Made by a program: the position numbers and the translations under genes. The notes beneath the pieces were generated by a model, which saw only the letters and a program-made list of their open reading frames with translations, was not told where the DNA came from and made no database searches. Source: Myxococcales bacterium (GTDB taxonomy: Bacteria > Myxococcota > Myxococcia > Myxococcales > JAJYLH01). Taken from it: 37,646 nucleotides of DNA. Numbering within the stretch: the first letter of the stretch is position 1; the number at the start of each line of letters is the position of its first letter. The stretch is taken from contig JAJYLH010000053.1 of the NCBI GenBank assembly GCA_021787845.1, positions 1 to 37,646 on the forward strand, written 5' to 3'. Below are positions 15,881 to 30,017 of this stretch, piece by piece.

Positions 15881-15923
15881 CAGGCAGCCCGGCTCCGCTG
15901 CTGCTTCGCACGCCCGAACCGCG

Positions 15924-15970
15924 CTGATCGGACCGATCGGTCTTATCGGTCGGATAGGTCGGATCGGTCA
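15924..15970. repeat. Family B GATC-rich repeat (copy 1)
   Basis: A run of near-identical 9-base units of the form GATCGGTCS includes the perfect palindrome GACCGATCGGTC. It lies just downstream of manC and holds three GATC sites; other units are degenerate (TATCGG, GATAGG). Other copies lie at 19791, 21251, 27116 and 29892. It may act as a transcript end or a methylation-sensitive site. Confidence 0.75.
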
Positions 15971-16132
15971 CGCCCGCCACTCCGCGTCCTGCTGCGAGAA
16001 CGGCGCCGCTCAAGCGCAGTGGCGAGCCCCGCCGCCGACCGACGAGCGCGACCGACTCGCGAGGGCCGCGCCTTCCGCGGTGGACTCTCGTCGTCCAATC
16101 GCCTAGCCTTTCGCGCCTTCGGGAGGTGACGG

Positions 16133-19777: not shown

Positions 19778-19790
19778 TGGTCAGGCTCCG

Positions 19791-19830
19791 AATCGGACCG
19801 ATCGGTCGGATCGGTCCGATCGGTCATTTT
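19791..19830. terminator. Family B GATC-rich hairpin (copy 2), likely terminator after dam
   Basis: GGACCGATC (19795-19803) and GATCGGTCC (19809-19817) form a perfect 9-bp stem around a 5-base loop. Another unit and then TTTT follow. It sits between the dam gene and the convergent unknown gene ending at 19867, where a terminator is expected. It contains three GATC sites. Confidence 0.6.
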
Positions 19831-19866
19831 CGTGGCCAGGCATCCGCTGCGCTGGGACGGTCCGCT

Positions 19867-20463
19867 TCAGTCCAGCTCGATCATCCGGAACCGGTCGCCC
19901 TGTGGCTTCTGGTCAGCGGGAGCCTTGCCGTTGTCCTGCTGGGCTCCTGGCGTCGCGGCAGGCGGCGGCGCTGCCGGTGAACGAGAGGGGTTCGCCCCTG
20001 CCGGCGCGCGCTGGGCGTTGGCCGGCGGCTGGCCGTAGAGCTCCCGGTTGTAGATCGAGTCGCGCGCCGGGGGCACGGAGGGGGGCGGAGGGCTCACGCT
20101 CGGCGGCGGCGCTGGCGCTGTGGGGCGGCGGTACTCGGTCACGTCGACGTTGCCGGTCGGCGTCCGGACCTGGAGGTGCTCCCCGTTGACGATGAACTTC
20201 TCCAGGATCGGGTCGCCCGGGCGCTGGGTCTTCAGCCGCCGGAGCAAGCCCGCGAAGGTCTCGTCGCCCACCTCGTCGTAGCCCTTGGGCGTCGCCTCGA
20301 GGGTCGCCTGGCCGATGGTGGAAAGGCCGTCCAAGACGTAGGTCGCGGTCAGCTCCACCGCCAGCTCGACGAGCTCCTGCCGATCGAGAGCGGAAAAGCG
20401 CTGCCGCAGCGCTTCCATCTCTCTCGCCAGCGGGTCGGGCGCCTTCGGCGTCGGGTCGCTCAT
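19867..20463 (-). CDS. Unknown protein with disordered Pro/Ala-rich tail
   Basis: I do not recognise this 198-residue protein. Residues 1-115 look folded and mainly helical (REMEALRQRFSALDRQELVE, then ELTATYVLDGLSTIGQATLE), ending with a short beta-rich piece (EHLQVRTPTGNVDVTEYRRP). The rest is low-complexity Pro, Ala and Ser, finishing GDRFRMIELD. No signal peptide is seen. Its ATG directly follows the stop of the pentapeptide-repeat gene with no base between (TAG then ATG), so translation of the two is almost certainly coupled. The pair is divergent from the Ycf46-like operon. Confidence 0.72.
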   Translation of the reverse strand: MSDPTPKAPDPLAREMEALRQRFSALDRQELVELAVELTATYVLDGLSTIGQATLEATPKGYDEVGDETFAGLLRRLKTQRPGDPILEKFIVNGEHLQVRTPTGNVDVTEYRRPTAPAPPPSVSPPPPSVPPARDSIYNRELYGQPPANAQRAPAGANPSRSPAAPPPAATPGAQQDNGKAPADQKPQGDRFRMIELD

Positions 20464-21141
20464 CTACAGCTCCACCTCGGTCTCGGGCGAGAGGTCGACC
20501 GGCACCGGCAGCGCGGTCCCCACCAGCGTCGCGCCGCGAAAGCTCGTCGCCTCCAGGAGCGTCCCGGTGAAGTCGCACCCGACCAGGGTCGCCCGGCGGA
20601 AGCTCGCCGCCCTGAGGCTCGCGCCCCGCAGGTCGCAGTCGATGAGCGTCGCGCCGTCGAAGGCGCTGCGGTCGAGGGGAGCGCCACCGGTGCGGGAGTC
20701 CGAGAAGGAGACGCGGACCAGGGTCGCCCCGCGGAAAGAGGCGCGGATGAGCGGCGTCTCCTCGAACCGGGCCACCGCCAGGCGAGAGCGGTCCAGCTTG
20801 ACGTTCATCGCCTGGCAGCCGTGGACCCGGAGGCGGCGCGCGTGGAAGCCGGTCCAGTCGGCCTCGTTGAGCTCGGAGAAGTAGAGCTCGACCCGGCTCG
20901 CCCTCGATTCGCTCAAGAGCGCGCCCCGCAGGTTGGTGGAGACGAAGGTGGTCGACTCGAACGCCGAGCTGGACAGATCCGCTTCCCCAAAATCGCAGCG
21001 CTCCAGGACCACAGCGCTGAGGTCGGCGTTGGGGCCGTGGAGCGAGCGCAGGGCGACGTCGGTCACCCGGTCACCGCGAAATCCCCGGACCTCGCGAAAG
21101 CGGCTGAGCGCGAGATCGTCCTGATGTCGAGTGAATTCCAT
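20464..21141 (-). CDS. Pentapeptide-repeat protein
   Basis: From the ATG at 21141 the protein has 225 residues, and nearly the whole length follows the A(D/N)LXX pentapeptide rhythm. Examples are LERCDFGEADLSSSAFESTT, RASFRGATLVRVSFSDS and FDGATLIDCDLRGASLRAAS. Such repeats fold into a right-handed quadrilateral beta helix. Some members mimic DNA and protect gyrase; most have no known role. This one has no signal peptide and no clear second domain. It is coupled to the unknown gene after it and faces the AAA+ ATPase gene across 264 bases. A role as a scaffold for that divergent operon is a guess from position only. Confidence 0.85.
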   Translation of the reverse strand: MEFTRHQDDLALSRFREVRGFRGDRVTDVALRSLHGPNADLSAVVLERCDFGEADLSSSAFESTTFVSTNLRGALLSESRASRVELYFSELNEADWTGFHARRLRVHGCQAMNVKLDRSRLAVARFEETPLIRASFRGATLVRVSFSDSRTGGAPLDRSAFDGATLIDCDLRGASLRAASFRRATLVGCDFTGTLLEATSFRGATLVGTALPVPVDLSPETEVEL

Positions 21142-21250
21142 CGAGGGGCCGACTCTGGCACGGCTGACGGTCGAGCGGCAAGCCTGGGGCGAAGGAGAGG
21201 GCGGATCCGCGTCGTCGTTTCCCGCCGGCCCGCTGCGGCGCCTGCGAGAG

Positions 21251-21291
21251 CCGACCGATCGGTCGGATGGGACCGATCGGTCCGATCGGAC
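21251..21291. repeat. Family B GATC-rich repeat (copy 3) in a divergent promoter region
   Basis: Two perfect palindromes lie side by side: CCGACCGATCGGTCGG (21251-21266) and GGACCGATCGGTCC (21270-21283). They sit between the divergent pentapeptide and AAA+ ATPase genes, where promoters for both must lie. Three GATC sites are present. A regulatory role is possible here, unlike at copies downstream of genes. Confidence 0.65.
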
Positions 21292-21405
21292 GGGCGGATG
21301 CCGGTCAACGCGCCGGCCGGGACCCGCGCGTCTTGCGCCGTGCGCTGCTGCCGCGCCTCGTTCTCGGTTTGCGTCGCGACGAAGTCGCGTGGTACCGATG
21401 CTCGA

Positions 21406-23163
21406 ATGAGCCGAGGTGCTTCCGACATCGACCCCTTCGCCGGCCCCGCGCCGGTGCCCTACGCGCGTCCGGTGACCGCCGACCGCGCGCGCGCGACCCC
21501 CGCGCCTGCGCCAGCGCGCGCGCCTGAGGCGAGCCAACCGGCCGAGCCCCCAGCGGAAGCGGCGCCGCCCCCGTCGAACGAGGCAGCAGCGCTCAAGGAG
21601 GCCAGCGAAGAGGCCAACGCGATGCGCCAGGTCGACAAGGACCTGGAGTTCCTCATTCGCGCCCGCTACGCGGTGCTCTACATGCTGACGAGCGAGGAGC
21701 GGCGGGCGGAGGAGACCATCCGCCGCGTCGGCCACGCCCGCTCGATGAAGGTCTTCGTCTGGTCGATCACCGAGGGGATGAAGCTGACCGACGGCTCCGC
21801 CGCCGACTGGAACCCGACCGAGTACAAGGACCCGCTCAAGGCGCTCCAGTTCGTGCTCGACCGCGACGTGCGCGGCCTCTTCGTCTTCCGCGACGCGCAC
21901 CCGTACCAGAAGAACCCGGAGTTCGTACGCAAGCTCCGCGACGTCGCGCGCAAGCTCAAGGAGACGAAGAAGACCCTCATCCTGCTCGCGAGCGTGCTCG
22001 CCGTGCCGCCCGAGATGGAGAAAGAGGTCGCGGTCGTCGAATATCCTTTGCCTGGAATTCCAGAGATCACCGAGATCTTCGATAAGACCCTGCGCACGGC
22101 GCAGGAGGCGTTCGGGCGCGAGCTGGAGCTGGACCAGCGCGAGCGCGAGCGGCTGGTGGAAGGGGCGCTGGGGCTGACCGCGGACGAGGCGGAGAACGTC
22201 TTCGCGAAGAGCCTGGTGCAGAAGGGCACCCTCGACATCGACGTCGTGCTCCGGGAGAAGGAGCGCATCGTCAAGAAGAGCGGCATCCTCGAGTTCTTCC
22301 CGACGCAGGAGACGATGGACGGCATCGGCGGCCTCGACCGGCTGAAGGACTGGCTCAAGAAGCGGCAGAGCGCGTTCGGGAAGGCGGCGCGCGACTACGG
22401 GTTGCCGCGGCCGAAGGGCATCCTCCTCATCGGCGTGCCCGGCTGCGGGAAGTCGCTGACCGCGAAGGCGGTGGGGACCTTCTGGCGGCTGCCGCTCTTG
22501 CGGCTGGACATGGGCAAGGTCTTCGCCGGCCTCGTCGGGTCGAGCGAGGAGAACATGCGCCGGGCGATCATGATGGCGGAAGCGGTAGCGCCCAGCGTCT
22601 TGTGGCTCGACGAGTTGGAGAAGGGGCTCGCGGGCACCGGCAGCTCGAACAACACCGACGGCGGCACCGCGGCGCGCGTCTTCGGCTCGTTCGTGAGCTG
22701 GCTGCAGGAGAAGACTTCGCCGGTGTTCGTCATCGCCACCGCCAACGACGTCTCGCAGCTCCCGCCGGAGCTGATGCGCAAGGGCCGCTTCGACGAGATC
22801 TTCTTCGCGGACCTGCCGACCCAGCCGGAGCGGGAGGAGATCTGGCGCATCCATTTCAAGAAGCGGAGGCGGGACCCGGCGAAGTACGACATCGCGGGGC
22901 TGGGGAAGGCGAGCGACCAGATGAGCGGCGCCGAAATCGAGCAGGCGGTGGTGGCCGCGATGTTCGACGCCTTCTACGACCAGGCCGAGGTGAGCGACCA
23001 GCACGTGATGAAGGCGCTCTCGGAGACGGTGCCGCTCAGCCGGACGATGAAGGAGAAAATCCTCGACATGCGTGCCTGGTGTCGCGCGCGGGCGCGGCCG
23101 GCGTCGAGCGCCTGGGCGGACACGCTCACCCCGGAAGGCACCCGGCAGATCGAGACGTCGTGA
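21406..23163 (+). CDS. AAA+ ATPase, Ycf46-like
   Basis: The 585-residue protein starts at an ATG at 21406. Residues 1-75 are Pro/Ala-rich and probably disordered. Residues 85-240 (DKDLEFLIRARYAVLYMLTS, EERRAEETI) match the N-terminal domain of the Ycf46 group known from cyanobacteria and plastids. The AAA core follows: Walker A GVPGCGKS with Lys349, Walker B VLWLDELEKG at 398-407, sensor region VFVIATANDVSQLPPELMRK, and GRFDEIFF with the arginine of the SRH. The family's client is unknown; a cyanobacterial homologue has been tied to inorganic-carbon responses. It leads an apparent operon with DUF1257 and DUF2997 proteins, the usual partners. It is not a protease, since no protease domain is present. 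Confidence 0.87.
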   Translation: MSRGASDIDPFAGPAPVPYARPVTADRARATPAPAPARAPEASQPAEPPAEAAPPPSNEAAALKEASEEANAMRQVDKDLEFLIRARYAVLYMLTSEERRAEETIRRVGHARSMKVFVWSITEGMKLTDGSAADWNPTEYKDPLKALQFVLDRDVRGLFVFRDAHPYQKNPEFVRKLRDVARKLKETKKTLILLASVLAVPPEMEKEVAVVEYPLPGIPEITEIFDKTLRTAQEAFGRELELDQRERERLVEGALGLTADEAENVFAKSLVQKGTLDIDVVLREKERIVKKSGILEFFPTQETMDGIGGLDRLKDWLKKRQSAFGKAARDYGLPRPKGILLIGVPGCGKSLTAKAVGTFWRLPLLRLDMGKVFAGLVGSSEENMRRAIMMAEAVAPSVLWLDELEKGLAGTGSSNNTDGGTAARVFGSFVSWLQEKTSPVFVIATANDVSQLPPELMRKGRFDEIFFADLPTQPEREEIWRIHFKKRRRDPAKYDIAGLGKASDQMSGAEIEQAVVAAMFDAFYDQAEVSDQHVMKALSETVPLSRTMKEKILDMRAWCRARARPASSAWADTLTPEGTRQIETS

Positions 23164-23171
23164 GGTCGAGT

Positions 23172-23263
23172 CGTAGGATGGGTGAAGCCGTAGGATGGGT
23201 GAAGCGCAGCCCATCAGCAGCGCCCCTGACGATGGGCTCCGCTACGCTCCACCCATCCTGCGG
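23172..23263. repeat. Family C palindromic repeat between the ATPase and DUF1257 genes
   Basis: A partial copy (CGTAGGATGGGTGAAG, 23172-23187) is followed by a full hairpin. The left arm at 23189-23215 begins CCGTAGGATGGGTGAAGCG; the right arm at 23231-23263 reads back as CCGCAGGATGGGTGGAGCG. This GTAGGATGGGTGgAGCGNAGC word is one I know as a frequent intergenic repeat in many proteobacteria. It forms a long imperfect stem and may attenuate or stabilise the operon mRNA. Confidence 0.8.
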
Positions 23264-23304
23264 TGACCGGCAGTGATCGCACCGCGTGGTCAGGAGAAGC
23301 GCTG

Positions 23305-23757
23305 ATGTCCCACTTCACGAACATCGACACGAAGATCACCGACCTCGTGTGCCTGAAGGCGGCGCTGGAGGACCTGGGGCTCGCGTTCGACGAGGCGACC
23401 GAGAACCAGCTCGTCTACGTCAAGGGCTGGCGGGGCGCGCAGCAGCAGGCGGAGCTCTCCATCCACATGACCTCGCACTACGACGTGGGCGTGCGGCAGA
23501 ACGCGGATGGCACCTTCGGGCTCGTCGGCGACTGGTGGGCGATCGAGGAGGAGACGGAAGAAAAGCAGGAGGTGCTCCAGCAGCGGCTCTTGCAGCGGTA
23601 CGCCTTCCACAAGGCGAAGAGCGAGGCGAAGAAGCAGGGCTTCACCATCGACAGCGAGGACGTGGCGCAGGACGGGACCATCCGGCTGAGCGTCTCGCGC
23701 GACGCGCCGGCGGAGGTGCAGGTCGACACCAGCGTCAAGCTGGGCGTGACCCGGTAG
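23305..23757 (+). CDS. DUF1257 protein (Ycf35-like)
   Basis: The 150-residue soluble protein starts at an ATG with AGGAG eight bases upstream. MSHFTNIDTKITDLVCLKAA followed by LEDLGLAFDE is the typical DUF1257 opening. HYDVGVRQNADGTFGLVGDW followed by W is the central signature, and the C-terminal QRYAFHKAKSEAKKQGF segment is also typical. The family includes Ycf35, encoded in red algal plastids and cyanobacteria. Its biochemical role is unknown. It lies between the Ycf46-like ATPase and DUF2997 genes, an order seen in cyanobacteria, so it is likely a partner of that ATPase. The 141-base gap upstream is occupied by the family C hairpin. Confidence 0.88.
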   Translation: MSHFTNIDTKITDLVCLKAALEDLGLAFDEATENQLVYVKGWRGAQQQAELSIHMTSHYDVGVRQNADGTFGLVGDWWAIEEETEEKQEVLQQRLLQRYAFHKAKSEAKKQGFTIDSEDVAQDGTIRLSVSRDAPAEVQVDTSVKLGVTR

Positions 23758-23815
23758 ATCGAATCGGTGGGCGGCTGCGCCGGCGTCGGGCGAGAGGGCT
23801 CTTAGGAGGCAGAGG

Positions 23816-24010
23816 ATGGGCGGCAAGCAGGTGATGGAAATCGAGATTCTCCCCTCGGGCGAGGTGAAGATCCAGGTCAAGGGGGTGCCGGGGCCGTCCT
23901 GCGAGCACGTCAGCAAGGAGTTGGAGGACCAGCTCGGGGCGGTGACCAACCGGCAGCACACCGGCGAGTTCTTCGAGGAGTCCGGCGACAGCGGTGCCGG
24001 CTCTCATTAG
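23816..24010 (+). CDS. DUF2997 small protein
   Basis: The product has 64 residues. MEIEILPSGEVKIQVKGVPG followed by PSCEHVSKELEDQLG matches DUF2997, including the central glycine and the conserved cysteine in SCEHV. GGAGG lies upstream of the ATG at 23816; a second in-frame ATG at 23834 would give the more usual family length, beginning MEIEI. It is a small alpha/beta protein of unknown function that typically accompanies DUF1257. The acidic C-terminal tail, GEFFEESGDSGAGSH, may mediate contacts. The FHA gene starts 16 bases later, which ties this small protein to that fusion by operon. Confidence 0.85.
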   Translation: MGGKQVMEIEILPSGEVKIQVKGVPGPSCEHVSKELEDQLGAVTNRQHTGEFFEESGDSGAGSH

Positions 24011-24025
24011 CCCTGCTGAGCGGCG

Positions 24026-25528
24026 ATGATCCAGCTCACCCATCTCACCGGGAGCCGCGCGGGGCAGGTCGACCAGAGCCCCAACGCGGTGGTCAGGCTC
24101 GGCCGCGGGACCGACTGCGACGTCCGCTTCGACGCCACCGTCGACCGGACCGTCTCCACCCATCACGCGGAAATCCGCTTCGACGGGCAGGGGTACCTCC
24201 TGGTCGACCTGCACTCGTCGAACGGCACGCTCATCAACGGCCGTCCCGCCCAGCAGCAGCGCTTGAGCCCGGGGGACATCATCGCCGTCGGCGGCGAAGT
24301 CGGGCCGCAACTGCGCTTCGACGTCCCGCAGGTGGCGGTCCCCTCGCCCCGGGCGCGCGCGACGCACCCGTCGGCGGCGAAGGCGGCCCCCGCGCCGGTG
24401 ACCGACGACGACGTGCTCAACGCGGCGCAGGCGGCGGTGGCGAAGGCGCGCCAGTCGCGCCAGGCGTCCGGGGGCGCGGCGCCCACCGGCCAGACCATGT
24501 TCCTCATGGTCGACGCCATCAACCAAGTGGTGGAGAAGAAGAAGTCCAACTTCAAGCGCAACCTGGCGATCGTGATCGGCGTCGCGGTCGTGATCTTCGC
24601 CGTGATGGGGTACGTGATCCTGCATCAGCGCGCGCTCTTGAACGCGAAGGTCGACCAGAAGAAAAGTCTCGACACGCAGATCGCCCAGCTCCAGCAGCAA
24701 ATCCAGCTCGAACCGGATGCGCAGAAGCGCAAAGCGGAGGTCGCGCAGCTCGACGAGCTGACCGGGAAGGCGGAGCAGGTGACCCAGGAGCTGGAGTCGA
24801 CGAGCAAGGGCCAGCAGGCGATGGCGCGCGCGGGGCTCGGGCACCAGGACTTCGTCGACCAGCAGATCCAGGAGATCCTCCACGAGTTCGAAGCGGACAC
24901 CTATTCTATTCCGCAGAATTTCCGCGACGCGGTGAAGGCCGACCTCCAGAAGTGGCAGCACGACCCGAGCCTGCCGCGCATCTGGGCGAGGCGGCAGCGC
25001 TACTGGCCGATGATCTCGCAGGCCTTCGCGCAGGAGCAGGTGCCCGACGTGATGGCCTACGTCGCCTGGCAGGAGAGCGAGTTCAACCCGGAGATCTGTT
25101 CCCAGGTCGGCGCCCGCGGGATGTGGCAGTTCATGCCCTCCACCGCGCGCCGCTACGGTTTGAGGGTGTCGCATGTCTGGGACCATTGCCAGCCGAAGGG
25201 AGGGGCAGCGGTCTGCAACTGCGGCAGCGGTACCGACGAGCGGACCGACCCGTACAAGTCCTCGCGGGCGGCGGCGCAGTACTTGGGCGACCTGCTCGCC
25301 CAGTTCGGGATGAGCTCGTTCATGCTCGCCATCGCGAGCTACAACAAGGGCGAGCACGGGATGCGCCAGGTTCTCTGCCAGTACAAGCTCAGGACCCGCG
25401 CCCAGCGCGACTTCTGGAACCTCTACTACATGCGCTACCTGCCGCAGGAGACCTTGGACTACGTGCCCCGGATCATCGCCGCCTCGATCATCGGCCACAA
25501 CCCGCAACGGTTCGGCCTGACCCCCTGA
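24026..25528 (+). CDS. FHA domain - transmembrane - coiled coil - lytic transglycosylase fusion
   Basis: Residues 1-95 form an FHA domain: VVRLGRGTDCDVRF, STHHAEIRF and HSSNGTLINGR carry the Gly-Arg, Ser/His and Asn-Gly residues that bind phosphothreonine. A 75-residue linker leads to one helix (LAIVIGVAVVIFAVMGYVIL) at about 177-196. A Gln/Lys/Glu-rich coiled coil follows to about 265. The C-terminal 170 residues are an SLT/MltD-type lytic transglycosylase: VAWQESEFNP with probable catalytic Glu350, GARGMWQFMPSTARRYGL and AIASYNKGEHG. An insertion, HCQPKGGAAVCNCGSG, adds three cysteines. The FHA domain should be cytoplasmic and the enzyme periplasmic, so phosphorylation inside could steer peptidoglycan cleavage outside. 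It follows DUF2997 by 16 bases. Confidence 0.88.
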   Translation: MIQLTHLTGSRAGQVDQSPNAVVRLGRGTDCDVRFDATVDRTVSTHHAEIRFDGQGYLLVDLHSSNGTLINGRPAQQQRLSPGDIIAVGGEVGPQLRFDVPQVAVPSPRARATHPSAAKAAPAPVTDDDVLNAAQAAVAKARQSRQASGGAAPTGQTMFLMVDAINQVVEKKKSNFKRNLAIVIGVAVVIFAVMGYVILHQRALLNAKVDQKKSLDTQIAQLQQQIQLEPDAQKRKAEVAQLDELTGKAEQVTQELESTSKGQQAMARAGLGHQDFVDQQIQEILHEFEADTYSIPQNFRDAVKADLQKWQHDPSLPRIWARRQRYWPMISQAFAQEQVPDVMAYVAWQESEFNPEICSQVGARGMWQFMPSTARRYGLRVSHVWDHCQPKGGAAVCNCGSGTDERTDPYKSSRAAAQYLGDLLAQFGMSSFMLAIASYNKGEHGMRQVLCQYKLRTRAQRDFWNLYYMRYLPQETLDYVPRIIAASIIGHNPQRFGLTP

Positions 25529-25666
25529 CCGGCGGGTCGGTCGGGCTCTTGGGCGCTCGCCCGCCGAGAGCTTTTTCCCGACGCCCGAGGTGGCCGGAAG
25601 GTGTATGACAGCGCGCGACGAGAGCCCTTGAAGCCGAGGTTCGGGTCGGCGAACCGCGAGGAGACC

Positions 25667-27043
25667 ATGAGGCGTACGACTCCGCTCTTGCTTACCTTGG
25701 CGACGCTCGTGTGGGCGGCCCTGGCCTGCGCCCCGCCGCCGTTCAACTACGTCCGCCTCTCCCGGCCGATGGCGCTGGGCGAGGACCAGACGGTGGACAT
25801 CGTGCCCGGCGACCCGTACCAGCGGGCGGCGAGCCGGAAGATCACCCTCCTCGGGCACGGGAAGCTGACCGTCACCGTGACGCCGGTCAACGCGCAGGCG
25901 AAGGAGCAGATCGACGTCTTCAACGAGACGGGAGGGCTGCCGGTCGACCAGGGCACTTCCCCTCTCCAGGTGCCGGACCTCGCCGCCGGGACCTACTACG
26001 TGGTGGCGGTCGCGCAGAACGGCGTCCCGACCAAGGTGGACATCGTCACTGCCTTCGAGCCGAAGGACCCGGAAGCGCGCTCGGGCGCGTTCGGGCACGA
26101 GGACGGGGCGACGGTGCTCGACCCGACGCAGCTCGCGCAGGGCACGCTGTCGCGCGGCACCGTCGACTACGCGAACCTGATGCGCTCGCACTACTACACC
26201 TTCACGCTCACCGATGCGGGGCAGGAGGTGAAGCTCGACTTCCACACCCACGACCCGCAGCGGGGCAACGTCACCGCGGCGGTCAAGGCGCCGAACGCCG
26301 ACTACGCCAACGTCGCGGCCACCGGCTTCGACCTGAAGAACGCGCCGGCCGGGAGCTATTTCGTGCGGGTGCAGGCGGACCCCAGCTCCTCGGCGGCGTA
26401 CTCGCTCAAGGCGCAGGCCATCGCCGGCGACCCCGACCGGGCCTCGGGCGACGACGCGACCCAGGATGGCGCCGACCAGCTCACCTTCAAGCCGGAGCCG
26501 GACGGCCAGAACCAGCTCGCGCAGGACAAGAACTCGGTCGACTACGACCAGGGCAACCGCACCAACTGGTACACCTTCTCGGCGCCGGACAAGGGGAACT
26601 GCAGCATCGTCTTCCGCCCCAAGGACCGGGACAGCGACGTGCGGGCCGAGTTCGTGCGGGAGAGCGGGCAGGAGGAGGGCGACCGGATTCGCAGCGGCTT
26701 CACCCGGCCGTGCGACAAGAGCCCGCTCTGGGTGCGGGTGTACGCGCCCAAGTCGGGAGACGGCGGCGAGTACCGGCTGCGGGTGGAGTACATCCCGTCG
26801 AAGTTCGTCCTCGCGCACATCACCGAGCTGGGCCGCGGGGGTGGCGGCTGCACGGTGATCGTCGACAAGGGCATGCGCGACCAGGTCCGCACCGGCGCCG
26901 CCGCCAACGTGGTCGACGGGCAGGGCAACACCGTCGCCGCCGGTTACGTGGAAGAGGCCTACCGCAACGAGAGCCGCGTGCGCGTCAGCACCGACAACTG
27001 CCATTTCTCCGGGGCGACGGTGCAGATCGCCGGCGGGTACTAG
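25667..27043 (+). CDS. Secreted or lipid-anchored protein with repeated PPC-like beta domains
   Basis: The 458-residue product begins with a signal peptide (MRRTTPLLLTLATLVWAALA) followed by Cys21, which may be lipidated although the box (ALAC) is not ideal. Three similar beta-rich segments follow, at about 30-140, 160-260 and 285-395, each ending with phrases such as AAGTYYVVAVA, PAGSYFVRVQ and GGEYRLRVEY. This is the pattern of bacterial pre-peptidase C-terminal (PPC) domains. The last 60 residues (GGGGCTVIVDKGMRDQVRTG to the end) look like a separate small beta domain with two cysteines. No enzyme domain is present, so it is probably a binding or scaffold protein of the outer envelope. It follows the FHA-transglycosylase gene by 138 bases. 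Confidence 0.75.
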   Translation: MRRTTPLLLTLATLVWAALACAPPPFNYVRLSRPMALGEDQTVDIVPGDPYQRAASRKITLLGHGKLTVTVTPVNAQAKEQIDVFNETGGLPVDQGTSPLQVPDLAAGTYYVVAVAQNGVPTKVDIVTAFEPKDPEARSGAFGHEDGATVLDPTQLAQGTLSRGTVDYANLMRSHYYTFTLTDAGQEVKLDFHTHDPQRGNVTAAVKAPNADYANVAATGFDLKNAPAGSYFVRVQADPSSSAAYSLKAQAIAGDPDRASGDDATQDGADQLTFKPEPDGQNQLAQDKNSVDYDQGNRTNWYTFSAPDKGNCSIVFRPKDRDSDVRAEFVRESGQEEGDRIRSGFTRPCDKSPLWVRVYAPKSGDGGEYRLRVEYIPSKFVLAHITELGRGGGGCTVIVDKGMRDQVRTGAAANVVDGQGNTVAAGYVEEAYRNESRVRVSTDNCHFSGATVQIAGGY

Positions 27044-27115
27044 CGCAAGCCGGCAGAGCTTTCGGTCACCGCAGGCGTCGGCTGGGCGCCAGGCGGTGCG
27101 GGCGCGCCCGCGCTC

Positions 27116-27158
27116 TGATCGGACCGATCAGTCGGATCCGACCGATCGGTCCGATCCG
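27116..27158. repeat. Family B GATC-rich hairpin (copy 4) between convergent genes
   Basis: GGACCGATC and GATCGGTCC bracket the perfect palindrome GTCGGATCCGAC, giving a long stem. Six GATC sites fall in about 55 bases counting the flank. It lies between the PPC-domain gene and the convergent lipoprotein gene ending at 27232, so it could end transcripts from both sides. No T-run is present. Confidence 0.7.
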
Positions 27159-27231
27159 GCGATCGCGAAGTGGGCGACAAGCGGCTCGCGGAGCTCGAAG
27201 CCGGGCAGGAGCGCTGGCGTAGACCGCCGGG

Positions 27232-28616: not shown

Positions 28617-28752
28617 ACCTGATCATGTTCGGGCGCTTTCTCGTTCTCGCTCATCCTGAGCGCAGTCGAAGGATGGGCGGGAACGCCCTGGGCCGCTCGC
28701 CCTTCGACTGCGCTCAGGGTGAGCGGTCCCGGACAGCACGAATGATCAAGGT
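28617..28752. repeat. Family A inverted repeat pair with outer arms, between dapD and dapE
   Basis: Two family A copies face each other: CGCTCATCCTGAGCGCAGTC at 28649 and the reverse CTTCGACTGCGCTCAGGGTG at 28702. Outside them, ACCTGATCAT (28617-28626) pairs with ATGATCAAGGT (28742-28752), with one unpaired base. The whole 136-base unit could fold into a long hairpin. The flanks at 28600-28630 and 28736-28775 are notably less GC-rich than the surroundings. It looks like a small palindromic mobile unit without its own genes. Confidence 0.7.
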
Positions 28753-28776: not shown

Positions 28777-29880
28777 ATGCCGGCTTTCGATTCATCGACC
28801 TCGACCGATCGGGCGCTCGGCGAGGCCCTCGCGCGGCGCACGCTCGATCTGTGCCGCATCCGGTCGGCGACGGGCGAAGAACGTGCGATCGCCGATCGCG
28901 CGGAGACCTGGGCGCGCCCGCTCTTCGAGAACGCCGTCGAGCGGATCGGCAACTCGCTCGTTCTCGGCCGCCCCGGAAGCGACGGGCGGCAAAGCGTCGG
29001 CCTCTTCGGCCATCTCGACACCGTGCCGCCCTCCTCTAGCGCCGATGAACCCCATCTCGAGCCCGACCGGGTCGTCGGCCTCGGCGCGAGCGACATGAAG
29101 GGCGGCCTCGCGGTGCTGGAGCTCCTCGCCGAACGGGGAGCCCTCGAAGAGGCGCCGTTCGATGTCGTCGCCGTGATGTACGAGCGGGAGGAGGGGCCGT
29201 ACACCGAGAGCGGTCTCGGCCCCTTGTTCGAGAAGCGCCCGGACCTTTCGCGCCTCGACTTCGCGCTCTGCCTCGAGCCGACCGACAACGCCATCCAGAT
29301 GGGCTGCTGCGGGTCGATTCACGCGACGGTCACCTTCGAGGGCATCAGCGCCCACTCGGCGCGCCCGTGGCAAGGCGAGAACGCGATTCACAAGGCGGGA
29401 CCGCTCCTCGTCCGCTTGCGCGAGCGGACGCCGGTCGCGGTCGAGGTCCAGGGCTTGCGCTTCTGGGAGGCGATGAGCGCGACCGTCGTGCGGGGGGGCC
29501 GCGCCCGCAACGTGGTGCCCGACGAGCTGGCGCTGAACCTGAACTATCGCTTCGCGCCGTCCAAGTCGCTCGACGAGGCGCAAGAGGAGCTGAAGCGGTT
29601 CGTGGGAACGCAAGCGCAAGTGCTCTTCACCGACCTCGCCCCGGCGGCACCGGTCTTCCGGGACCATCCGCTCTTGCGCCGCCTCCAGGAGACGACCGGC
29701 GCGCCGATCGAGAGCAAGCAGGCCTGGACCGATGTCGCCCGGCTCGGGCTCCACGGCGTCCCGGCGGTCAACTTCGGCCCCGGCCACGGCGCCCAGGCCC
29801 ACCAGGCGGCGGAGTACGTCGACGTCGCGAGCTTGGTGCGCGGCTACCGGCTGCTCGAGCGGTTCTTGCACGCCGGCTGA
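28777..29880 (+). CDS. dapE: Succinyl-diaminopimelate desuccinylase (M20 family)
   Basis: DapE removes succinate from N-succinyl-LL-diaminopimelate, releasing diaminopimelate for lysine and peptidoglycan. The 367-residue zinc enzyme shows the M20 signatures: GHLDTVPP near residue 78 (first zinc ligand), GASDMKGGLAVLE near 104 (bridging Asp), MYEREEGPYTESGLG near 136 (catalytic Glu pair), ISAHSARPWQG in the dimerisation domain, and GPGHGAQAHQAAEYVDV near 335 (last His). This arrangement is closer to the actinobacterial-type DapE than to the E. coli one. I take the ATG at 28777; a GTG three bases earlier is equally placed. With dapD it forms the succinylase pair, separated by a palindromic repeat. 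Confidence 0.9.
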   Translation: MPAFDSSTSTDRALGEALARRTLDLCRIRSATGEERAIADRAETWARPLFENAVERIGNSLVLGRPGSDGRQSVGLFGHLDTVPPSSSADEPHLEPDRVVGLGASDMKGGLAVLELLAERGALEEAPFDVVAVMYEREEGPYTESGLGPLFEKRPDLSRLDFALCLEPTDNAIQMGCCGSIHATVTFEGISAHSARPWQGENAIHKAGPLLVRLRERTPVAVEVQGLRFWEAMSATVVRGGRARNVVPDELALNLNYRFAPSKSLDEAQEELKRFVGTQAQVLFTDLAPAAPVFRDHPLLRRLQETTGAPIESKQAWTDVARLGLHGVPAVNFGPGHGAQAHQAAEYVDVASLVRGYRLLERFLHAG

Positions 29881-29891
29881 CCGGGTTTCGG

Positions 29892-29922
29892 GATCGGACC
29901 GATCGGACCAATCGGTCTGATC
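29892..29922. repeat. Family B GATC-rich hairpin (copy 5) after dapE
   Basis: GATCGGACCGAT (29892-29903) pairs with ATCGGTCTGATC (29911-29922) around a 7-base loop with one G-T pair. It begins 12 bases after the dapE stop, a position fitting a transcription terminator, though no T-run follows. It has three GATC sites. Confidence 0.6.
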
Positions 29923-30017
29923 ACCGCGAATGAACGCGCAGTCCGCACGGGTTGTGATTAGAGTCTCGAGGTCGAGCGGGCCCCTGAACGGCTCGCTCGC
30001 TTTCTCTTCGGGGAACC

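Follow-up and report, generated by a model that had tools for sequence, protein, structure and literature searches.

What would three genes typical of cyanobacteria and plastids be doing beside a peptidoglycan-cutting enzyme in an apparent non-phototroph? The ycf46, ycf35, and DUF2997 genes have been kept in cyanobacteria and in plastids of the red lineage, and we know of no settled function for any of them. Homologues of all three lie together in a 37,646-nucleotide (nt) stretch of DNA from an uncultured soil bacterium of the Myxococcales (GenBank assembly GCA_021787845.1, contig JAJYLH010000053.1), which is called the window here; it is contig C21 of genome G000 (6.24 Mb, 98% complete). The trio belongs to a cluster of seven genes at positions 19867-27043, and we have high confidence that its linkage to two of the others, a lytic transglycosylase with an FHA domain (FHA-SLT) and a lipoprotein, is real and clade specific. 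Whether the seven genes act as an accessory to a contractile injection system (CIS) that resembles a phage tail and is controlled by a Ser/Thr kinase and FHA proteins is, in our judgment, an even call. That reading draws on the linkage, the domains, the intact catalytic and phospho-reading residues, the co-occurrence with a CIS, and the absence of an AAA gene from the CIS loci, from which we infer the functional steps.

The unk198 and pentapeptide-repeat genes are on the minus strand, and the other five are on the plus strand. A first-pass annotation, made from the sequence alone, had described this arrangement, with the same positions and strands, and its family assignments were confirmed by Pfam, apart from PPC, which gave a weak match. 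The features of the cluster are as follows.

19867..20463, minus strand: unk198, an orphan gene divergent from the trio; its product has a Pro-rich C-terminal half and a conserved RFxxIEL(D/E) tail
20464..21141, minus strand: pentapeptide-repeat protein (PF00805, 8.5e-22); its stop abuts the unk198 start
21248..21310, no strand: palindromic GATCGGTCC array with a 9-nt period, found by repeat search in the divergent promoter region
21406..23163 (alternative start 21454), plus strand: Ycf46-type AAA ATPase (Pfam AAA PF00004, 3.1e-26, residues 339-469)
23164..23304, no strand: hairpin-forming repeat of 141 bp between the AAA and DUF1257 genes, seen in the window sequence
23305..23757, plus strand: DUF1257 protein of the Ycf35 family (PF06868, 1.7e-21)
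23816..24010, plus strand: DUF2997 protein (PF11211, 3.5e-15)
24026..25528, plus strand: FHA-transmembrane-coiled coil-SLT lytic transglycosylase of 500 aa with an MltD-like SLT domain (PF00498, 2.3e-18; PF01464, 7.1e-23; PRK10783 MltD, 5.2e-22)
25667..27043, plus strand: lipoprotein whose PPC-like repeats are weak, as is the likeness of its C terminus to an MreC barrel; signal peptide ending ALAC|A

The cluster was compared across 174 genomes of the phylum with completeness of ≥85%, sorted into coded families (f1 is the window's own, and f4 is likely the Myxococcaceae); most of the genomes compared are draft metagenome-assembled genomes (MAGs). DUF1257 was present in 15 of the 174, plus one less complete f8 genome. 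Trios of what we call type A were found in the window and in nine f8 genomes. The FHA-SLT gene and then the lipoprotein gene directly followed the trio in 9/9 f8 genomes, DUF2997 was called in 8/9, and the pentapeptide and unk198 genes were divergent from the AAA gene in all eight f8 loci where the contig allows (in G044 the pair is on a separate contig). This gene order was kept between the window and f8 at protein identities of about 30 to 60%, with unrelated outer flanks; in f8 the AAA and DUF1257 genes have a 4-nt overlap, whereas in the window they are separated by the 141-bp hairpin-rich spacer. Type B trios (AAA, zinc-ribbon, DUF1257, and DUF2997), found in five f6 genomes, in the f17 genome G153, and as a second copy in the f8 genome G007, have the same AAA-DUF1257-DUF2997 core but differ in their separate AAA clade, their zinc-ribbon partner, and the lack of the FHA-SLT and lipoprotein genes (0/7 loci) and, in the f6 genomes, of a CIS. 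In the AAA tree types A and B were apart with support of 100/99, and the distant lineage G178 grouped with type A. At the G178 locus (L070) the pentapeptide and unk198 genes are divergent from a gene for a coiled-coil FHA protein, which is followed by AAA, DUF1257, and DUF2997; because another FHA protein adjoins the AAA gene there, an FHA partner recurs, though not the same protein. The search of Pfam and NCBIfam with unk198 gave no match, and a phylum-wide profile search found unk198 in 10/174 genomes (the window's and nine of f8); it also lies beside the trio in L070. In G038, which has no DUF1257 match, unk198 is near a contig end and adjoins the pentapeptide gene.

The linkage of the trio to the FHA-SLT and lipoprotein genes, as proposed in the first-pass annotation, thus goes far beyond chance in related genomes, because 10/10 type A genomes (the window's included) have these neighbors. 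As a statement about the trio in general it failed: 7/7 type B loci lack both genes, and FHA-SLT also occurs without the trio. Since the f8 relatives keep the neighbors and type B never has them, the linkage is real but limited to one trio clade. The seven zinc-ribbon loci without FHA-SLT, together with the f5 genome G004, in which an FHA-SLT gene directly precedes a lipoprotein gene with no trio, would suit an explanation by which two unrelated units share one transcript, a housekeeping Ycf46/DUF1257/DUF2997 trio and an FHA-SLT/lipoprotein pair, with no joint mechanism. We consider this unlikely; adjacency at the identities given above in every type A genome, the recurrence of an FHA partner in G178, and the restriction of unk198 to the type A trio clade all argue against it.

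The CIS comes into view in f8. Beyond the lipoprotein gene there lie genes for a thioredoxin-like protein, an LPP20-like lipoprotein, an 835-aa FHA coiled-coil protein, and a Ser/Thr kinase, and then the CIS itself. It encodes a short FHA protein, a zinc-ribbon protein, a gp25-like protein, a TIGR02243 baseplate protein, and Cis12-like and Cis13-like proteins, followed by a zinc-ribbon-FHA protein, a vWA-transmembrane-FHA protein, a VgrG-related protein, two sheaths, tubes, LysM, and VgrG. The CIS is about 8 to 12 kb from the cluster on the same contig in four f8 genomes (G007, G018, G035, and G044), and in two more (G013 and G029) the contig ends are compatible with the same adjacency. Within the window no CIS genes were recognized near the cluster; sheath, tube, baseplate, and spike genes are all present in the window's genome outside the window. 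Contig C104 carries the CIS kinase, FHA proteins, gp25, baseplate, Cis12, and Cis13, with unrelated genes (an enolase-like gene among them) inside the set, and contig C56 carries a sheath (85% identical), tubes, LysM, and VgrG. Since the CIS genes are themselves scattered in this genome, the missing linkage to the cluster weighs little.

Only genomes that have this CIS or a remnant of it contain the lipoprotein and the FHA-SLT group to which the window's copy belongs, and TIGR02243 had no match in the f6 and f17 genomes with the type B trio. Lipoprotein homologues were found in the window's genome, the nine f8 genomes, and the f5 genome G004; elsewhere there were two weak generic matches. The f8 genome G026 (87% complete) lacks the CIS baseplate and sheath and also lacks the trio, full-length FHA-SLT, and unk198, and it keeps the lipoprotein gene beside CIS-type kinase and vWA-FHA genes; at this completeness the pattern suggests, but does not establish, a joint loss of the CIS core and most of the cluster. 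The first-pass proposal that the trio serves an envelope machine is plausible for type A, with the CIS now named as the candidate, and the gene linkage behind it did not hold for trios in general. Two observations on the CIS loci may be added. VgrG-related CIS proteins (loci L098, L097, L150, and L172) have very long low-complexity extensions, with lengths of 1277 to 4213 aa as called, which are possible cargo or tape-measure fusions. In G178 the CIS locus includes a pentapeptide gene as well as a lipoprotein that matches PPC over a short stretch, kinds of repeat too generic to count as support.

The FHA-SLT protein has one transmembrane segment at about residues 180-199, preceded by a KKKSNFKR stretch, which fits a predicted topology with the FHA domain inside and the SLT domain outside. 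Its SLT domain has the catalytic Glu and the GMxQ/YN motifs; the Glu is present in 10/10 homologues, and the phosphothreonine-reading FHA residues G26/R27/S44/H47/N66 are complete in 9/10, the tenth row being truncated at its start. Lytic transglycosylases dedicated to particular machines are known, e.g., EtgA, MltE, and the flagellar SLT. FHA-SLT resembles these in its SLT fold and intact catalytic Glu and, from its sequence, would be expected to open peptidoglycan locally, but unlike them it carries its own cytoplasmic domain predicted to read phosphopeptides. In type VI secretion systems (T6SSs), posttranslational control can work through a kinase and FHA proteins, as with PpkA-Fha/TagH. 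The likeness to our case is a kinase with FHA proteins within a contractile-system locus; the difference is that here a single membrane-spanning protein joins FHA to a lytic transglycosylase, and that the contractile system is a phage-tail/extracellular-CIS-like one. The lipoprotein had been labeled PPC-like. Its signal peptide ends ALAC|A in the window, and f8 copies have LAGC; the PPC match is below cutoff (E value of 0.0031, 18.8 bits against a cutoff of 25.9), as is that of an f8 orthologue (25.8 bits against 25.9). Because the match is weak, the label is tentative.

The FHA regions also gave scores against the Yop-YscD_cpl, TagH, and GltG models, as might be expected if the cluster served another envelope machine with an FHA-containing base, such as a gliding motor, a type IV pilus, or a secretion system. 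We regard this as very improbable. Only the general YscD-type FHA fold passes its cutoff, the TagH and GltG scores are far under theirs, and no genes of such machines were recognized beside the cluster in the loci examined.

Full-length FHA-SLT paralogues that are not linked to the trio occur in f8, f6, and f5. In the FHA-SLT tree the trio-linked copies grouped with the copy of the f5 genome G004 (86/94), and a divergent f16 row was also there; because of long branches, the exact places of the window, f5, and f16 rows are unsure. In G049 (C19, locus L078), a genome without this CIS, an FHA-SLT gene is directly beside a Ser/Thr kinase gene, and at L081:1826-3676 (G044:C77) a Ser/Thr kinase is fused to an SLT domain, with a second SLT gene adjacent. 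Because of this adjacency and this fusion, kinase signaling and this type of SLT appear to be associated more widely. These cases favor an explanation that leaves the CIS out: a kinase/FHA network would steer the transglycosylase and lipoprotein in ordinary wall remodeling during growth, division, or sporulation, the AAA trio would remodel that complex, and the adjacency to the CIS in f8 would reflect shared regulation or chance. The separation of cluster and CIS in both the window's genome and G178 is in keeping with it, as are the dapD and dapE-like genes among the window neighbors. It is harder to reconcile with the confinement of the lipoprotein and the window-type FHA-SLT group to genomes that have the CIS or its remnant, with the joint absence in G026, and with cluster-CIS adjacency across f8 genera. 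We consider it less likely than the CIS reading.

The AAA protein of the trio has an invariant Walker A (GxPGxGKS), Walker B (DE), sensor Asn (N431), and arginine finger (R445) in its C-terminal half (numbering from the 21454 start), and no P-loop in the sequence of its first half. A structural model of moderate confidence (pLDDT of 63) aligned over about 540 columns, covering both AAA halves, to the tandem-AAA p97/Cdc48. Judged by sequence and model, the protein is predicted to be a tandem AAA with a degenerate D1-like half and an active D2-like half. The DUF1257 model (pLDDT of 83) had no confident match in the PDB; a KA1-like fold was considered and set aside, because its best rows had a Z of 6.9, in the range that means merely a common arrangement, and no fold is claimed. 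Long open frames in some relatives suggested AAA-DUF1257 fusions, but the genes are actually separate.

A CIS as a rule comes with an AAA ATPase of its own, Cis15; in Pvc15, which loads cargo, D1 is inactive and D2 alone is active (PMC11495950, PMC12210884). The trio AAA is predicted to share the tandem build of Cis15/Pvc15, with D2 as its active half, but it is of another family, has no winged-helix domain, is carried with DUF1257 and DUF2997, and in the window lies outside any CIS locus. A gene combining a winged-helix domain with AAA (WHD-AAA) was present in 6/6 sampled f4 CIS loci. No AAA gene was found in 15 loci of the trio-type CIS, even by a Walker A and AAA search for a hidden loader, on what are draft MAG contigs, and a search of f8 genomes and of the f5 genome G004 gave no winged-helix AAA at any locus. 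The single WHD match in G000 was rejected as a Cis15, being a frame of 218 aa that has no AAA domain and lies next to a transposase-like gene. By analogy, the trio AAA may work like Cis15; that it substitutes for the absent Cis15-type ATPase seems doubtful to us.

Taken as a CIS module, the cluster might work as follows. The AAA ATPase, with its inactive D1-like and active D2 halves and with DUF1257 and DUF2997 as adaptors, would load cargo into the CIS or assemble it, a task that in other systems falls to an AAA belonging to the CIS, Cis15/Pvc15. The CIS kinase would phosphorylate a partner, and the cytoplasmic FHA domain would bind that phosphothreonine; binding would bring the periplasmic SLT domain to the site, where it would cut peptidoglycan and let the CIS cross, anchor, or be released. 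The lipoprotein would mark or brace the outer side of the envelope, and the pentapeptide/unk198 pair would be a divergent partner. The fuller version, in which the Ycf46-type ATPase, DUF1257, and DUF2997 are a second, separate loading or assembly complex that replaces Cis15 and is paired with a trans-envelope enzyme turning a kinase signal into peptidoglycan opening, we regard as less probable than the module itself and rather doubtful.

Several points weigh against assigning the cluster to the CIS. The co-occurrence of trio and CIS (uncorrected P values of about 7e-4 per genome and 1e-3 per genus, with kinship ignored) comes from about three lineages: the window's own family, f8, and G178. 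The cluster is not adjacent to the CIS in the window's genome or in G178, where a related CIS is on a contig other than the cluster's. The main counterexample is family f5, whose genome G004 (95% complete) combines the same CIS and the FHA-SLT/lipoprotein pair with neither a trio nor a detectable Cis15; this suggests that at least one such system can do without the trio. Paralogues of FHA-SLT are also found where trio and CIS are both missing (G049 and G046). The absence of an AAA gene from trio-type CIS loci rests on draft MAG contigs, and in G178 there are two WHD-AAA genes that are not linked to the CIS there. Finally, the trio AAA has no winged-helix N-terminal domain (PF22977) and is not of the Cis15 family, and because that domain is absent we did not file it as Cis15.

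On the fuller version, phosphorylation would gate the crossing of the wall by this CIS. If the CIS assignment is true, FHA-SLT would be a one-molecule link from kinase signaling to wall cutting. The trio would gain its first testable job outside photosynthesis, and the tie of type A to a defined machine in apparent non-phototrophs would give a direct experimental handle on ycf46, ycf35, and DUF2997. The case also suggests how a CIS without the usual ATPase could be loaded.

The cyanobacterial and plastid Ycf46, Ycf35, and DUF2997 proteins are of the same Pfam families as the trio. The usual cyanobacterial set (cluster g) is DUF2997-ycf35-ferredoxin (PMC4284462); cyanobacterial locus L175 shows this set, with AAA-DUF1257 elsewhere, and a cyanobacterial AAA encoded beside a DUF1257 gene matched the trio AAA profile at 1.5e-194, with homology along its length. 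The myxobacterial cluster differs in having all three genes together and linked to FHA-SLT, and in that no ferredoxin gene was found in the window cluster, a neighbor typical in cyanobacteria and not required for the domain families. A scan with a DUF1257 alignment gave ten loci, all in Myxococcota or Deltaproteobacteria records except one in Sericytochromatia, and a scan of contigs with the single DUF1257 protein of the window gave no locus. Relatives from the phylum Cyanobacteriota (L178-L180 and L072) have DUF1257, with no trio AAA or DUF2997 detected nearby. No paper that deals with DUF1257 in non-phototrophs, or with a fusion of FHA to SLT, turned up in full-text literature searches. Among the type B loci (L027-L033), transketolase and a radical-SAM-activase-like gene were nearby in several f6 genomes.

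The outer neighbors of the cluster in the window are a Dam-type methylase, an ROK-type gene, and a phosphomannomutase-type gene on one side; the opposite side has dapD and a dapE-like gene. These neighbors are not common to the loci of relatives. Five intergenic palindromic arrays of GATCGGTCC/GGACCGATC with a 9-nt period were found in the window (15908-15979, 19782-19835, 21248-21310, 27099-27161, and 29874-29936); two of them flank the seven-gene cluster, and one is in its divergent promoter region. Downstream of dapD, at 28648-28725, there is an inverted repeat of 33 nt with a 12-nt loop (CGCTCATCCTGAGCGCAGTCGAAGGATGGG) that resembles a repetitive extragenic palindrome or a miniature inverted-repeat transposable element (REP/MITE-like).

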